Below the pieces are notes generated by a model. The model had not been told where the DNA came from, did no database searches, and saw only the letters and a program-made list of their open reading frames with translations. From Magnetococcales bacterium (GTDB lineage Bacteria > Pseudomonadota > Magnetococcia > Magnetococcales > JADFYX01): a DNA stretch of 56,110 nucleotides. The stretch covers positions 1 through 56,110 of the forward strand of contig JADFZU010000013.1 in the NCBI GenBank assembly GCA_015232365.1. Reading direction: 5' to 3'. Positions 8,321 through 55,766 of the stretch are shown here, piece after piece (the first letter of the stretch is position 1; every line of letters starts with the position of its first letter). The translations under genes and the position numbers were made by a program.

Positions 8321-8557
8321 TAACATCAAACTATATTTCATGCTTGGACAAAAAAGGAAAAATAACTCAGCACTGCTGTTGAGGTTATCGCAAATTTTTC
8401 ATTTTATATATCTGAAACAGCTATTCCTAACCTTTTAAACTAATACATGACCACGCTGATTATGAACCGTAGTGCACAGCAGAAAACAAAGCCTTGGGAG
8501 GGCTTGCAGCCCCCTAACCCCCTCGCTTTAATATAAAAGCAAAAGCTAAGCAAAACC

Positions 8558-8600
8558 TTGGGCTCTGCCCAAACCCGGCAGGGGGATAATCCCCCTACAT
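8558..8600. repeat. GC-rich double-hairpin repeat
   Basis: TTGGGC-TCT-GCCCAA at 8558-8572 is followed by ACCCGGCAGGGGG-ATAAT-CCCCCT. The same two-hairpin design appears at 35889 (nearly identical first hairpin with the same following AACCCGG) and at 41590. A degenerate neighbour lies at about 8498-8535. It sits in the intergenic region upstream of pilA; its function is unknown. Confidence 0.55.
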
Positions 8601-8651
8601 CCCCTATATACTAAACCAGTGTGGTCTTGTACTAGGTTTAACAATACAGAG

Positions 8652-10315: not shown

Positions 10316-10819
10316 AACCACTCTCCCAACCAACATATGCCTGACAAAAAAAATAGCTGAAAACCTCATTTGATTTCCAGCCATCTTTTTATACTATCAA
10401 CTACGGTGTAAATTTAAAAAACTATAGACCCATACCAATCAGGATAGATGCTGATGCATAGACTTCACGGCAGATACTACAATTATCCAGATTCGTAAGT
10501 TATCCGTACATCACTGGTGCAAACTTTTTATTAACCTGACAAACCAATATGTTGCACCATTAATGTGCACCCAACTGCCAAACCTGGATTACAGTGGTAG
10601 CTTTTGCCCTGCCAGAAGGGAATTTATTTCCTCTACACATTCATAAACTGAACAGATAATTAGGAGCCTATAGCGTTAACCATTTAATATAAAAACAAAT
10701 AAATAGTTTTTTCGATATTGGCAACAGCCTTGCAGTCTATGAGCGATATAAGAGAATTATTCATATAAAATAATAATAACATAATTTAGGCAAACTTTTA
10801 GATTTTTCGGAGTCACAAT
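10316..10819. other. Divergent intergenic region with a half repeat
   Basis: This is about 500 bp of AT-rich DNA between the oxygenase and ankyrin genes. It contains a half copy of the dispersed palindromic repeat at 10531-10588. I see no further ORF. A GGAG ribosome binding site precedes the ankyrin start. Confidence 0.5.
10531..10588 (-). repeat. Half copy of the dispersed MITE-like repeat
   Basis: On the minus strand this reads CCAGGTTTGGCAGTTGGG followed by a match to the ATTAATGGTGCAA and CATATTGGTTTGTC blocks of the left half of copy B (34711). The right half is missing, so it is a decayed or single-end copy. Confidence 0.65.
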
Positions 10820-11197: not shown

Positions 11198-11199
11198 CC

Positions 11200-11360
11200 C
11201 AGATTCAGCAGTTGGACGTTCATTAACGGCATAACATATTGGTTTATCATCTTAATCAGGAAAAACCTAAACCACCTTATTGGTGATGAGAATTTTCCTT
11301 ATTTACCCGGTTAGTAAAGAGGTTGTGCCAGTGATGTGCGAACAACTGCCGAATCTAAGG
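11200..11360. repeat. Dispersed MITE-like palindromic repeat, full copy C
   Basis: This copy starts CAGATTCAGCAGTTGG and ends CAACTGCCGAATCTAAGG. It aligns with copies A and B throughout, including CATAACATATTGGTTTATC, ACCTTATTGGTGATGAGA and GAGGTTGTGCCAGTGATG. It fills the gap between the convergent stop codons at 11197 and 11361 almost to the base. Confidence 0.8.
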
Positions 11361-19865: not shown

Positions 19866-19880
19866 AACTGCCGAATCCAG
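19866..19880. repeat. Solo terminal repeat of the MITE-like family
   Basis: AACTGCCGAATCCAG matches the right terminal repeat of the dispersed element with one change. It lies immediately downstream of the legI stop codon (19883-19885). No left end is recognisable upstream, so it is an isolated end. Confidence 0.5.
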
Positions 19881-22134: not shown

Positions 22135-22163
22135 AAAATATCCAGAATCAACCAAGTTTTAAT

Positions 22164-22212
22164 CTAGATTCGGCAGTTGCGCCTTTAATACAGACCCAAC
22201 TACCGAATCTAG
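22164..22212. repeat. Mini form (49 bp) of the MITE-like repeat
   Basis: CTAGATTCGGCAGTTG at 22164-22179 faces CCGAATCTAG ending at 22212, so this copy carries both terminal repeats with most of the interior deleted. It sits between the legC stop codon (22215-22217) and the legG start in an otherwise tight operon, where it would form a hairpin in the mRNA. Confidence 0.75.
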
Positions 22213-22214
22213 CT

Positions 22215-23375
22215 TTAATTAGAGACCGCATGTAACACTGCATTAATAACCTGCTCTTGATCATCTTTTGACAAACCAACTGAACAGGGCAGAACCACCA
22301 CCCTGAACCAGATATCATCACAGACTGTAAGACTGTTTTTAGGAGCATTTTTATATGGATCTTGGAGATGGATCGGTTTCCAGAAAGGCCGGGACTCAAT
22401 TCCACTATTTTTTAAATGGGCCAAAATAGAGCTTATACGTTCTGGGTCTGCCCTATCCACAAATACCCCAGAAAACCAACAGCTACTTTGCTGGATCTTG
22501 GATGGAGGGCTATAGTCAGGAAAAGCAATTAAACTTGATATGTCGTCAAAAGCCTCATCATAAACCCGGCGAATTCTCTGTTTTGCAGCGACAAGGTCTG
22601 CAATACGTTCCAACTGGGCAGTACCAATTGCGGCATGAACATTACTCAGCCTATAGTTAAAGCCGACCCGGTCATGGTCATAACCGCTGCCATACCGGGC
22701 TGTGGTAGTCAGATGTTTTACCAGATCCATCTGGGCGGGATCATCACCTACAACCGCACCGCCACCACCACAAGTCAAGGTCTTGTTGCCATTAAAGGAA
22801 AAAACTGTCAAATCCGCCCCCAACGCCCCAACTGGCCGCTGATTATCAACAGCTCCCAGTGCTGCGGCAGAGTCGGCAACCACAGGCAGGTTATACTCTC
22901 TGGCGATGGCGACAATACGGTCCATATCTGCTGGCAAGCCCAAGGTATACACCGGCATTATCGCTGCGACACGCCGCCCGGTTGGCCGGTGGATCACCTC
23001 CCCGCCCCGAATCTCTGTATCTGACTCCAGCCTTCTTGCCAACTGCTCAGGGTCAAGGTTCCAACTTGTGCGCTCCACATCAAACAGCCATGGGTCGGCC
23101 CCACAATAGCTAATGGCGTTGGCACTGGCGATAAAGGTCAACGATGGCAGAATAACCAGATCATCCCTCTCAACCCCGACAGCTACCAAAGCGGCATGGA
23201 GTCCGGCGGTTCCTGAAGATGTTGCCACCCCGCGAAAACTACCAGATACATTTGCAACCATCTCCTCAAAACGGCCAACAAAAGAGCCGACTGAAGAGAT
23301 AAAGTTGCTGGTGACACACTCCTCAAGATAGCGACTTTCATTGCCGGACAAATCTGGAACTGCTAATGGGATCAT
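22215..23375 (-). CDS. legC: PLP-dependent sugar aminotransferase (LegC-like)
   Basis: This 386-aa protein of the DegT/DnrJ/EryC1 family adds an amino group to a 4-keto UDP-sugar. It shows ATSSGTAGLHAAL (cofactor phosphate site), the VADSAAALGA Asp that contacts the pyridine ring, and the Schiff-base Lys in FSFNGNKTLTCGGGG. FNGNK with the GGGG that follows is typical of LegC-type aminotransferases. It acts after the 4,6-dehydratase encoded just upstream (23418-24620), with a 42-bp gap. It starts MIPLAVPDLSGNE at the ATG at 23375. Confidence 0.9.
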   Translation of the reverse strand: MIPLAVPDLSGNESRYLEECVTSNFISSVGSFVGRFEEMVANVSGSFRGVATSSGTAGLHAALVAVGVERDDLVILPSLTFIASANAISYCGADPWLFDVERTSWNLDPEQLARRLESDTEIRGGEVIHRPTGRRVAAIMPVYTLGLPADMDRIVAIAREYNLPVVADSAAALGAVDNQRPVGALGADLTVFSFNGNKTLTCGGGGAVVGDDPAQMDLVKHLTTTARYGSGYDHDRVGFNYRLSNVHAAIGTAQLERIADLVAAKQRIRRVYDEAFDDISSLIAFPDYSPPSKIQQSSCWFSGVFVDRADPERISSILAHLKNSGIESRPFWKPIHLQDPYKNAPKNSLTVCDDIWFRVVVLPCSVGLSKDDQEQVINAVLHAVSN

Positions 23376-23417: not shown

Positions 23418-24620
23418 CTACATTTTTTGATCAAGGTTGCGGCTTGATATCTGGTGGTCAAGCTCTGGGACTGTTAATTTAACCGCACCGGCAATCTCTC
23501 CAACAAGCCAGTTTTTATCTTCTTTAATCTTTTTTAGTGCGGCTAGACTCTCAGAGAGACTGCCTTCATCCATTGGCGGTTGTCCGGCAATAATACCCAC
23601 TGCTTTAAATCGGGAAAAATCTGCCCTCTCCCCACGGCCAACAAACTCCTCCACCGGCTTTTCTCCACTGGTATCACTACCACTAAAATAACAGGGCCAC
23701 TCTTTTTTCTCCGCCAGATCCCCTTTACCGGCAATCTCTTTGGCCTCAATCTCAGAAGCACACTTAATTGGAGTGTAGCCTCTCTCTTTTAAAAACAGCT
23801 CGGCAATTTCTGAGAATGTTTTCAGATCTGATTGTGGACTGAGACGGGGAATAAAAACCTCCCGGTTCTCACCAAGAAAACAGGCAAGAAGACACAACTG
23901 CCCCGACTCCTCATGGGAGATAAAGTAGCGGCGAACGTCAAAGGGAGCCGATAGAGGTTGGCCCTTCTCAAAGCGACGGATAAAACCATGCAGCAGGCTG
24001 CCATCAGAAAAAGCAACATTGGCAAACCGGGCTGTTGAGTACGGAACATCCCCGGAAAATGCGTAGAGCAACTGCTCCATCAACGCCTTACTCGCACCCA
24101 TCAGGTTGGCTGGGTTGACCGCTTTATCAGATGAGACTGAAAAGACCCTGCTCTGCCTGGAGATTTTCAAAAAGGCCAGCAGCCTCTGCAATGAAAAAAT
24201 ATTGGTCTCTAACATCTGCATCAGGCTGTATGGGTCTCGCTCAACACGAACATGTTTTAACGCTGAAAAATTAACCACATAATCATAGCTCTGCTGAGAC
24301 TCCAAAAAATAGTCAAACATTACCGACCCCATAGGGATGGATAGAGTCATAAAATCTGTGGGAACGTGAAGAGTTGAGGAGCGAAGATCCCGTACCAGCT
24401 CAACAAGATTGTTCTCGGCAGGATCAACCAAGTGCAGGGTTTTAGGGGTAAAGGCCAACAACTGCTTAACAAAAGAGCTGCCGATGGATCCGGCCGCACC
24501 GACAACCAAAATCCGGCTACCGGTAATTTTATCAATCAGTTCCAAATCGGCACTCTCTAAATCATCTTTAAAAAGAGATTTACTGCGACCTAATACCTGC
24601 TCTAACAGTGTTGTCGTCAT
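23418..24620 (-). CDS. legB: NAD-dependent UDP-sugar 4,6-dehydratase, soluble (LegB/PglF-like)
   Basis: This 400-aa protein of the polysaccharide biosynthesis/CapD short-chain dehydrogenase group lacks the membrane helices of FlaA1 or PglF. The NAD-binding loop is ILVVGAAGSIGSSF (about 34-47), and the active-site region is VSSDKAVNPANLMGASKALMEQL. A later FSDGSLLHGFIRRFEKGQPLS segment follows, then ISHEESGQLCLL, all typical of inverting or retaining UDP-GlcNAc 4,6-dehydratases. As the first enzyme of the cluster it would make the 4-keto-6-deoxy sugar for LegC. The C-terminal third (about 300-400) is less conserved. PseB-like activity cannot be excluded by inspection. Confidence 0.82.
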   Translation of the reverse strand: MTTTLLEQVLGRSKSLFKDDLESADLELIDKITGSRILVVGAAGSIGSSFVKQLLAFTPKTLHLVDPAENNLVELVRDLRSSTLHVPTDFMTLSIPMGSVMFDYFLESQQSYDYVVNFSALKHVRVERDPYSLMQMLETNIFSLQRLLAFLKISRQSRVFSVSSDKAVNPANLMGASKALMEQLLYAFSGDVPYSTARFANVAFSDGSLLHGFIRRFEKGQPLSAPFDVRRYFISHEESGQLCLLACFLGENREVFIPRLSPQSDLKTFSEIAELFLKERGYTPIKCASEIEAKEIAGKGDLAEKKEWPCYFSGSDTSGEKPVEEFVGRGERADFSRFKAVGIIAGQPPMDEGSLSESLAALKKIKEDKNWLVGEIAGAVKLTVPELDHQISSRNLDQKM

Positions 24621-34671: not shown

Positions 34672-34710
34672 AATCTAAATATTTGAATATTTAAGCCTTT
34701 TAATTTAAAC

Positions 34711-34870
34711 CTAGATTCGGCAGTTTGGCGTGCATTAATGGTGCAAATATTGGTTTATCTGGTGAATCAGGAAAAATCGAAATCACCTTGTGGGTAATAA
34801 GGCTTTTTTCCGGTTTGCCAGATGAATCAAGAGTTTTTGCCAGTGATGTACGAACAACTGCCGAATCTAG
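34711..34870. repeat. Dispersed MITE-like palindromic repeat, full copy B (best preserved)
   Basis: The 160-bp element has perfect 15-bp terminal inverted repeats, CTAGATTCGGCAGTT (34711-34725) and AACTGCCGAATCTAG (34856-34870). Inside, ATATTGGTTTATCTGGTGAA on the left pairs imperfectly with TTTGCCAGATGAATCAAG on the right, around a central CACC..GGTA region. The flanks TTTAAAC and ATTAAAC could be a 7-bp target duplication with one mismatch. No ORF of transposase type is inside. Confidence 0.85.
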
Positions 34871-34909
34871 ATTAAACAGTTTAACTACAATATTGTCTGT
34901 GATTGTGAA

Positions 34910-35173: not shown

Positions 35174-35260
35174 AATTAAATATTACCCTCTAAATAAATG
35201 ACCAAAGATTCTAAACTGTTCAGGTTTATTTTCTATTCATACTATCTGCGTAGATTATCA

Positions 35261-35320
35261 TAGATTCGGCAGTTTGGCGTGGATTAATGCTGCAACATGT
35301 TGGCTTGCCATATAAATCAA
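35261..35320 (+). repeat. Half copy of the dispersed MITE-like repeat
   Basis: TAGATTCGGCAGTTTGGCGT followed by GGATTAATGCTGCAACATGTTGG matches the left half of copy B. The right half is replaced by the segment at 35322-35362. Confidence 0.7.
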
Positions 35321-35321
35321 T

Positions 35322-35362
35322 AAATTGCACCATTTACGCACTTCTAACCGCCGTTTCCAGGA
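35322..35362 (-). repeat. Second dispersed repeat, partner of 55380-55421
   Basis: On the minus strand this reads CCTGGAAACGGCGGTTAGAA followed by GTGCGTAAATGGTGCAAT. The plus-strand segment at 55380 reads CCTGGAAACAGCGGTTTAAA then GTGCGTACATGGCACAAT. About 36 of 42 positions agree. Both lie near MITE-like copies, so it may be part of a longer variant of that element. Confidence 0.55.
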
Positions 35363-35711: not shown

Positions 35712-35802
35712 TTCATAAATTTTACAATTTTTTAGATGTTGTTGGTCTCGTAAAACAACAGTAAAGCACCATTAATACTCACCTAACTGCTGAATATAGG
35801 AT

Positions 35803-35837: not shown

Positions 35838-35888
35838 ATGTCTGCTTCTTACTTATGGTTGGGGCAAGAGTATTTTAATGTTAAACCT

Positions 35889-35925
35889 TGGGCACTGCCC
35901 AAACCCGGTAGGGGGTTGCCCCCCA
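35889..35925. repeat. GC-rich double-hairpin repeat
   Basis: TTGGGCACTGCCCAA is followed by ACCCGGTAGGGGG-TTG-CCCCCC. It is nearly identical in its first part to the copy at 8558. It lies between the aconitase stop codon (35940) and the gene's terminator. Confidence 0.6.
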
Positions 35926-41581: not shown

Positions 41582-41589
41582 GAGAAGAT

Positions 41590-41634
41590 GGGCCTCGCCC
41601 AAACCCAGCGGGGGGAGCACACCCCCCTGCTGGG
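41590..41634. repeat. GC-rich double-hairpin repeat, likely terminator of eno
   Basis: A small GGGC-CTC-GCCC hairpin is followed by CCCAGCGGGGGG (41604-41615) paired with CCCCCCTGCTGGG (41622-41634), with a one-base bulge. It lies between the convergent K+ channel and eno stop codons. It is the fourth member of the hairpin family in the window and probably ends the long eno operon transcript. Confidence 0.65.
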
Positions 41635-53467: not shown

Positions 53468-54088
53468 TCAAGATTGAGCCGCAGCAGCTTTTTTAGCTTT
53501 TGCCGCTGCCACTCTTGCTTTCATCGCTGCCATTTTAGCAGCTTTTTCATCAGCAGGGTCTGCAGCAGGTGTGGTAGCTGGTTCGACAGCAGGTACCGCA
53601 TCGCCACCGGCAGCCGCAGCAGCTTTTTTGGCTTTTGCTGCTGCTACTTTGGCTTTCATTGCTGCCATTTTAGCAGCCTTATCATCACCAACATCTGCAG
53701 TAGGTGCTGCATCGCCACCAGCAGCCGCAGCAGCCTTTTTGGCTTTTGCCGCTGCTACTTTGGCTTTCATCGCTGCAACTTTATCTGCCGGAGAGCCAGA
53801 CTCTGCTGCTACAGTTTTTGCTGCTGGAGCTTTGGCGGGGCGGCTCTTTTTAACCGGCTTACCTAATGCAGGGCGGTAGATCTCTACCCGCTCCCCATCG
53901 ACCAATACCCGGTCATTATCAACTATTTTTCCCCATACACCAAGTTTAGATGTGGAAAGATCAAGATCAGCAAATTTATTGACTATTCCTGATTGTTGGA
54001 CAGCTTGCATTGCTGTTCCACCCTCTTCCAGCTCGATATTCATAACCATCTGTTTTTTAGCTTCGGCATAGGCTACGGCAACTTTCAT
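53468..54088 (-). CDS. RnfH-family ubiquitin-like protein fused to a Lys/Ala-rich repeat tail
   Basis: This 206-aa protein starts at 54088 (MKVAVAYAEAKKQ), behind GGGAGAG; an upstream start at 54136 is less likely. Residues 1-80 fit the RnfH family, a beta-grasp fold (VAYAEAKKQMVMNIELEEGGTAMQAVQ; LGVWGKIVDNDRVLVDGERVEIYRPAL). Residues 85-206 are low-complexity. They contain three near-identical units, each with (K)MAAMKAKVAAAKAKKAAAA, separated by acidic/Pro-rich linkers. Such K/A tails resemble the C-terminal repeats of RnfC. The gene is first in the operon that runs to eno; no other rnf gene is in the window. Its function is unknown. Confidence 0.78.
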   Translation of the reverse strand: MKVAVAYAEAKKQMVMNIELEEGGTAMQAVQQSGIVNKFADLDLSTSKLGVWGKIVDNDRVLVDGERVEIYRPALGKPVKKSRPAKAPAAKTVAAESGSPADKVAAMKAKVAAAKAKKAAAAAGGDAAPTADVGDDKAAKMAAMKAKVAAAKAKKAAAAAGGDAVPAVEPATTPAADPADEKAAKMAAMKARVAAAKAKKAAAAQS

Positions 54089-54476
54089 GAACCAGCTCTC
54101 CCAATCGAAATAATATCCAATATTCTCCTCAACCACGAATAATAGTCACACTTTAGCCTCTCTTTCAATAGATAATGCCTTATTGGTTTAGCATAAACCC
54201 TTCTATGTAAGTTACCTGCTATTTACAACTACCTATTTTATAAATATATTTTTTTATACACGGATTTTTTTGTTGGAATCTGGTTGTGACACACTCAAAA
54301 CCAAAAAATGTAGTGGGCCACACACAATTACCACACAATAATTTTTTGATGCAATTTACTGTTATATGTTGATAATTGAAGAATATATAAAATATACTGG
54401 CACACAAATTGTAAAATATATAGTATGGGCTGGATAATTTGTACTATTTTGACATTTTAAGGATAGCTGAAGCTTT
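54089..54476. promoter_or_regulatory. AT-rich divergent region upstream of parA, with CACACAA repeats
   Basis: About 390 bp lie between the RnfH-like operon (minus) and parA (plus). It is very AT-rich. CACACAAT occurs at 54321 and 54332, 11 bp apart, and CACACAAA at 54401. The promoter of the long minus operon should also lie here. The repeats might be operator sites, but this is speculative. Confidence 0.4.
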
Positions 54477-55379: not shown

Positions 55380-55421
55380 CCTGGAAACAGCGGTTTAAAG
55401 TGCGTACATGGCACAATCTAA
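55380..55421 (+). repeat. Second dispersed repeat, partner of 35322-35362
   Basis: CCTGGAAACAGCGGTTTAAA followed by GTGCGTACATGGCACAAT is an inverted copy of 35322-35362, with about 36 of 42 positions the same. It lies 240 bp upstream of a MITE-like half copy. Confidence 0.55.
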
Positions 55422-55666
55422 TGACTTATCTAGTGTACCAGTGAAACCCCTTATCACCGTGTTGGTTACAAGGTTTTTTCATGATATGTTGGTGACTTTC
55501 CACAGCAGACAAATACCTGCCTCTAACTACCGTTTTAAATTGATACACACCATCTACTTCCAAAATGGTTAAACCTATATTCTGTAGTTTGGCAGACATA
55601 CCTGGCACAACCTCTTGAGCCACATTACAAACCAGAAAAAAGTTTTGTCGCCAGCAGGGTAATTTT

Positions 55667-55766
55667 GACTTGTTCTGATTTACCAGATGAATCAATAGGT
55701 TGTTGCCAGTTATGTGAGAACAACTGCCAAACCTAGGATTAATACACGCCAAACTGCCAAATCTAG
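55667..55766 (+). repeat. Right-half copy of the MITE-like repeat with a doubled end
   Basis: GACTTGTTCTGATTTACCAG and GTTGTTGCCAGTTATGTGAG match the right half of copies A and B. It has two successive terminal repeats, ...AACTGCCAAACCTAG and AACTGCCAAATCTAG, the latter ending at 55766. The left half is absent. It lies directly before the truncated PiT gene. Confidence 0.7.

Follow-up and report, generated by a model that had tools for sequence, protein, structure and literature searches.

A palindromic MITE family in Magnetococcales and other phyla, with a frame-preserving length and a putative IS1380-like partner

A palindromic repeat family is present in a contig of a Magnetococcales MAG, its transposition is well supported, and copies of it lie in frame within conserved protein genes. 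The overall reading that we consider likely is that of a palindromic MITE served in trans by an IS1380-like transposase, with a main length shaped to be neutral for genes and a folded hairpin that has been kept; three parts of this reading are inferred, namely that mobilisation occurs in trans, that frame neutrality was selected for, and that the hairpin has a role. The window, i.e. the whole stretch of DNA analysed (56,110 nucleotides), is one contig (C8) of a 2.84-Mb genome (G000) that is 83% complete.

Results

The repeat family in the window

A profile built from own-genome copies recognised four full copies, two forms of approximately 103 bp, one of 51 bp, and remnants (Table 1). TIR-like sites in the window numbered 20, compared with 4.6 in shuffles. 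The sequence model used for scoring, R1, has 163 positions and was made from 26 sequences, the reference copy itself being among them.

Table 1. Members of the repeat family in the window (positions are those of the window; TSD, target duplication).
Feature	Position	Strand	Details
Reference full-length palindromic MITE copy, 162 bp	34710..34871	+	ends CCTAGATTCGGCAGTT...AACTGCCGAATCTAGA; R1 140.6 bits, E 7e-43
Left 5-bp target duplication of reference copy	34705..34709	.	TTAAA
Right 5-bp target duplication of reference copy	34872..34876	.	TTAAA
Full-length copy adjoining gltX stop codon	1010..1171	+	flanks GTAAT/TTAAT; R1 123.3 bits
Full-length copy between stop codons of two convergent genes	11198..11359	+	exact TSD GTTAG; R1 118.5 bits
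Fourth full-length copy, diverged	55574..55737	-	R1 80 bits, E 5e-24
Complete short form, 103 bp (103 + 5 = 36 codons), without hairpin middle	35259..35361	+	profile match
Complete short form, 101 bp	10487..10587	-	flanks ATTAT/ATTAC
51-bp mini-form, two ends and short spacer	22163..22213	.	exact TSD TTTAA at 22158-22162 and 22214-22218
Decayed copy, model positions 2-110	55381..55489	+	E 5.5e-10
Decayed left part of copy	35739..35799	-	E 0.002
Solitary end adjoining the fourth full copy	55738..55766	-	end-pattern / model match
Solitary end TGGATTCGGCAGTT	19866..19879	-	end-pattern match

The sequence-only reading had placed a copy at 34711–34870 and had counted at least three full copies; both claims held, with the limits now set as in Table 1 and with a fourth copy added. 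The three stretches that it had taken for half copies failed as such: 55667–55766 covers part of the full minus-strand copy and then a solitary end, and 10531–10588 and 35261–35320 belong to complete short forms. Its 49-bp mini-form (22164–22212) held with amended limits and its solo end (19866–19880) held one position shorter, while TTTAAAC and ATTAAAC, offered as a possible duplication, held in part, being the 5-bp duplication plus bases of the element end.

Other repeats and reading frames were seen in the window. A second dispersed repeat of approximately 130 bp (GCCTTGGGAGGGCTTGCAGCCCCC...CCCAAACCCGGCAGGGGGATAATCCCCC) lies at 8483–8615, has dozens of copies in the congeners, and has related stretches at 35883–35924 and 41583–41624. 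The ORF at 53468–54136 contains 95-bp repeats coding Ala/Lys-rich segments (AAKAKKAAAAAGGDA...), and the ORF at 288–842 resembles, by eye only, a truncated IS5-type transposase.

Ends, target duplication and copy number

The element is short (162–163 bp), multi-copy and without a transposase, and thus satisfies the MITE criterion. Terminal inverted repeats CCTAGATTCGGCAGTT are found at both ends, and the shortest form consists of two ends, with a length of 48–52 bp. An exact 5-bp flank repeat was present in 55 of the 99 distinct full Magnetococcales copies, as compared with a shuffled mean of 6.9 and a maximum of 13. Flank repeats of 4 or 6 bp gave no signal in these 99 copies, and other lengths gave nothing comparable. 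The insertion target is A/T-rich (WTNAW). In a group of Chlamydiae MAGs, 50 of the 51 sampled copies had an exact target duplication. The site of the copy at 11198 was empty in two congeners (G004 and G001). Since the ends are shared and the 5-bp target duplication lies far above the shuffles, we conclude that this is a MITE family, and its transposition is well supported.

Genome-wide, the end pattern (at most one mismatch) gave 122 sites, and the reversed pattern gave none. Model matches in the own genome fall at 62 or more distinct strong places; the matches themselves number 155, a figure that includes a palindrome on both strands and derives from a capped set of candidates. The copy number is thus of the order of 60–150, and the earlier estimate of hundreds per genome was not clearly borne out. 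There was no Rfam match in the window, no published sequence carrying either MITE end in the open-access literature searched, no mini-form in the viral contigs searched, and no DNA match to the Chlamydiae form in the plasmids searched.

The proposed partner transposon

An IS1380-like transposase gene with near-identical flanking ends (CCTAAANNCGGCAGTT) was found in other hosts of the MITE. This partner IS is approximately 1.65 kb long, with ends of the type CCTA[A/G]ANNCGGCAGTT. The IS in L311 has 1634 bp, a TIR match of 17/18 bp and the duplication ATTTA/ATTTA; those in L310 (1663 bp) and L304 (1706 bp) both have CCTAAANNCGGCAGTT-type ends, and in L303, L306 and L317 one such end was recognised beside the transposase. 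On a Polaromonas plasmid (CP087967.1, L342), a 1630-bp IS has TTAAA flanks on both sides and a right end identical to the MITE end at 16/16 positions. Two other partner IS copies have unequal flanks. The comparison was confined to the ends, and IS ends are mostly one position off the MITE ends (CCTAAA versus CCTAGA).

The partner transposases form a coherent family (45–59% identity to the first sequence). They scored 80–90 bits against PF13701 (cut-off 34.7) and 131–157 bits against NF033539, which is below the curated cut-off of 180, and share approximately 24% identity with IS1380 members annotated on plasmids, suggesting a divergent branch. Ends that start with CCT and A/T-rich duplications of 4–5 bp are general features of the IS1380 family. 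The family (including ISEcp1) resembles the partner in its ends starting with CCT, in its duplications (as seen in L311 and L342) and, subject to the NF033539 score below the cut-off, in its transposase; it differs from the MITE in carrying a transposase. IS1380-family matches in the order of the window have ends of the type CCTGGATCCGTGAGTT and 5-bp duplications, one such IS having ATTTA flanks.

No intact partner IS was found in the genus of the window (G000–G004, including a 99%-complete genome), so that mobilisation there is historical at best. The Magnetococcales hold only fragments, decayed IS pieces with cognate ends being present in five other genomes of the order, and several other MITE hosts gave no IS1380 match at all. 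The inference that the MITE was most likely moved in trans by an IS1380-like transposase lacks direct demonstration. The sequence-only reading had named a non-autonomous element mobilised in trans, which the 5-bp duplication, the empty site and the IS with matching ends elsewhere support. It had also proposed a search for further copies in the genome, for empty orthologous sites and for a larger element with the same ends and a transposase; all three have been found, the last in other hosts only and with ends that are mostly one position off.

Some further arrangements were noted. Own contig C41 carries two different IS1380-family transposases (8–535 and 23731–23847; L063, L077) that run off the contig ends; the ends of these elements are CCCGGATTTCCCAGATGG and CCCGGATATTTCATAAAG, and the second element adjoins a MITE fragment. 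They were considered as the parent and rejected because their ends differ. End pairs 180–5000 bp apart in the cross-phylum loci were also rejected as far as they were examined (L210, L230, L291 and L209): they belong to adjacent MITE ends or copies and enclose no transposase. The Polaromonas plasmid has two more MITE-like ends, spaced 234 bp apart at 2711–2944 of L342; the intact IS is approximately 360 bp away. An IS701-like transposase (NF049999) in congener G002 (contig C460, L083, 1–735) interrupts a MITE copy at its centre.

Reading frame and copies inside genes

The 163-bp element together with its 5-bp duplication adds 168 nt, i.e. 56 whole codons, and the element can therefore reside in protein genes without breaking the frame. 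In the in-phase copies, the mean number of stops was 0.63 in the LETAV frame, compared with 3.51 and 2.47 in the other frames, and on both strands there is one frame poor in stops. The earlier statement that the element has no coding capacity thus holds for autonomous coding only. The 103-bp short class, which is also in phase, is abundant. Off-phase lineages exist (162, 164 and 174–176 bp), and no comparable stop depletion was seen in off-phase-length copies; this comparison is weakened, since the frame changes inside a copy wherever there is an indel, and constant off-phase lineages are few.

Among exactly-ended copies, 11 of 51 in Chlamydiae and five of seven in Parachlamydiaceae lie inside ORFs that are open for at least 30 codons on each side, always in the stop-depleted frame. 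One Chlamydiae MAG gave 151 translated matches, nearly all of them MITE copies, some in ORFs of >1000 aa. The Magnetococcales copies are mostly intergenic. In a PknB-like kinase of the own genome, the insert lies between HRD and DFG and amounts to approximately 56 extra residues against 3f61 (query 147/206 versus chain 151/154), and in a glyoxalase II query 105/169 corresponds to chain 97/105 of 1xm8. Inserts were also found in genes for PrmC, AroDE, a YaiI/YqxD-like protein and an AMP-binding enzyme. A GluRS/GlnRS-type synthetase of G002 has an in-frame insert at about residues 132–187, and the orthologous sequences of G001, G003 and G004 run through without it. These results show in-frame insertion into conserved genes, as is the case for Rickettsia palindromic elements (RPE); continued function of the enzymes is not established.

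Differences between lineages showed no excess at third codon positions, and the peptide itself is therefore not clearly under selection. We regard frame neutrality of the main length class as likely, selection for it being inferred, and it is possible that the in-phase 163-bp length is the ancestral one.

Palindrome and fold

The predicted fold of the G000 consensus is much stronger on the + strand (−107.6 kcal/mol) than on the minus strand (−67.2 kcal/mol). The reference copy gave −80.4 (z −10.2) versus −52.0 kcal/mol (z −6.8) as RNA, and −37.0 versus −27.3 kcal/mol as DNA, for the + and minus strands, respectively. All six Magnetococcales consensi show the asymmetry in this direction, and the homologous strand is the stable one in Chlamydiae, Nitrospirae and Gammaproteobacteria.

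Across 12 lineages, 45 of 79 pairs had changes on both sides, 83.9% of the cells remained paired, and the covariation of pairs was 0.449, as compared with 0.184 in shuffled and at most 0.145 in slid alignments. Consensi from within genomes are part of this set, and positions were paired by simple symmetry, without recourse to a predicted fold. At symmetric positions read on one homologous strand (15 lineages), G-U occurred in 113 cells and A-C in 28 (distinct, 28 versus 13); the lineages are related, and the counts are not independent events. In most lineages, columns 29, 39, 72 and 73 are left unpaired. The spacing of the unpaired positions along the helix has a weak periodicity of approximately 10.7 nt (p 0.004 in Magnetococcales and 0.037 in all lineages), on which we do not rely.

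Within genomes, pair-keeping and pair-breaking substitutions were nearly equal (C>T 153/2352 versus G>A 172/2446), suggesting that selection, if responsible, operates on the source copies rather than on every insertion. There was no preference of orientation to the neighbouring genes (19 co-directional, 13 antisense, 13 convergent and seven divergent). Most in-gene copies of Chlamydiae are read on the + strand, those of Magnetococcales on the minus strand; stable folding and translation thus do not simply go with the same strand. Compensatory changes accompany the retention of the palindrome; that its hairpin plays a part in propagating source copies is only inferred.

Spread across genomes and phyla

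The family is present in all four congeners and in G047, which belongs to another family of the order; a few copies were found in G015, G022, G025 and G032. In one scan over 84,980 species genomes, paired ends 155–176 bp apart were found in Magnetococcales, at least four Chlamydiae MAGs, Nitrospirae, Gammaproteobacteria, Acidobacteria, Verrucomicrobia and others, so that the spread is at least this wide. Most of these elements are 162–164 bp long, and 12 lineage representatives of 163 bp could be aligned without gaps. As most records are MAGs, errors of binning may account for the occurrences with one copy only (Klebsiella, Verrucomicrobia, Acidobacteria, Nitrospinota); in Chlamydiae and Gammaproteobacteria the element is multi-copy. 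One record binned as Nitrospinota (L205, JADGAW010000244.1) holds a Magnetococcales-type copy very close to that of the window genus and is probably such an error. Neither this spread across phyla nor the frame-preserving length, the copies inside genes and the compensatory changes could be seen in the sequence-only reading. The presence in several phyla of elements whose length preserves the frame, and the retention of the palindrome with compensatory changes, are what sets the family apart from an ordinary MITE.

Discussion

In the mechanism that we propose, a DDE transposase of the IS1380-like type, supplied by a separate IS of approximately 1.65 kb, would recognise the MITE ends, and the MITE would be inserted at WTNAW, leaving the 5-bp duplication. 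In the genus of the window, where the IS is absent, the copies look like relics. The main length class would have been shaped to be neutral for genes, a correctly phased insertion adding 56 residues without destroying the protein. The palindrome would be retained in the form of a folded hairpin, one strand being preferred, and the hairpin would have a role in the propagation of the source copy. The possibility also exists, as a bolder reading, that the elements are horizontally spreading, gene-transparent passengers: one ancestral 163-bp hairpin may have been exchanged across phyla and selected for whole codons and for a frame readable on both strands, its folded strand (RNA or single-stranded DNA) being recognised in mobilisation or easing tolerance by the host gene.

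Other explanations can be offered. It is possible that the element is primarily a structured RNA, i.e. that the + strand is transcribed into a functional hairpin (for instance RNase III processing, mRNA stability or a regulatory RNA) and that transposition is only its means of spreading. The strong asymmetry of the fold on the same homologous strand across phyla, the excess of G-U over A-C and the conservation of unpaired positions at fixed columns, with their weak periodicity, speak for this explanation; the lack of preference in gene orientation, the similar pair-keeping and pair-breaking rates, which indicate that individual copies are not visibly selected for structure, and the absence of an Rfam match in the window speak against it. 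Less probably, the palindrome is maintained in the absence of selection, its arms being kept alike by gene conversion or template switching at replication. Long palindromes are known substrates for such correction, which would also yield two-sided changes. However, correction would erase mismatches, whereas four columns remain unpaired in most lineages, and it would treat both strands alike, whereas G-U exceeds A-C on one homologous strand and the substitution spectra in the copies have no matching strand bias.

It is very unlikely that the family is an extragenic regulatory palindrome of the ERIC/REP type that is moved by other means. The mostly intergenic position in Magnetococcales and an imperfect palindrome of a size like that of ERIC and YPAL would fit, but the exact 5-bp duplication, the CC...GG ends common to an IS, the in-gene copies and the lack of a REP-sized unit do not, and the suggestion of a very large REP/ERIC-type element in the sequence-only reading is not supported. 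As to the parent, an IS701-like transposon joined to a half MITE in G002 (C460) is all but excluded. There, the half MITE begins about 25–40 bp past the stop codon of a transposase that matches NF049999 with 144 bits; however, the IS701-like family has its own ends (TACTGARGTTTCACC) in L083, L089 and L091, and these ends, together with the junction at the MITE centre, indicate that the transposase is nested in the MITE.

Among known systems, RPE (Ogata et al. 2000; in PMC2229807 and PMC10969869) are palindromes of 105–150 bp with long stem-loops and an open frame, which lie in frame within conserved protein genes and also between genes. A target duplication of RPE is marked with a question mark in review, where the mode of movement is left open. 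The MITE is likewise palindromic, with an open frame, in conserved genes and intergenic; it differs in having known ends, an exact 5-bp duplication and a plausible candidate for the parent transposase, in its presence in several phyla, and in a length that gives 56 codons with the duplication. By analogy, and without a sequence comparison with RPE, the MITE works like an RPE inside genes; we do not claim membership. QMITE1 and QMITE2 of Coxiella burnetii (PMC5896051) are multi-copy MITEs of 300–400 or 150–190 bp with stable hairpins and direct repeats of 2–3 or 7–11 nt, which overlap or contain ORFs; QMITE1 is reportedly without orthologues in other genomes. They share the multi-copy state, the hairpin and the overlap with ORFs with the present MITE, and a frame-preserving length is not reported in the relevant passages of that paper.

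ERIC (RU-1) and YPAL (RU-2) of enterobacteria (PMC2229807) are multi-copy imperfect palindromes of 127 and 168 bp with a strong predicted RNA fold and occasional ORFs. ERIC has 5'TA3' termini and approximately 127 bp, whereas the MITE has 163 bp, other ends and a 5-bp duplication (no consensus alignment was made); the duplications of YPAL are 3–26 bp, compared with 5 bp here. REP is a palindromic unit of 20–40 bp (GTAG/CGTC), a criterion that the MITE unit of 162–163 bp fails.

With its ends defined, its target duplication exact, a candidate transposase at hand and insertions known in conserved genes, the family makes the question of how in-frame palindromic elements move directly testable. 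The family is a natural experiment on a selfish insert evolving gene neutrality, and a passenger element common to phyla as distant as Magnetococcales and Chlamydiae.
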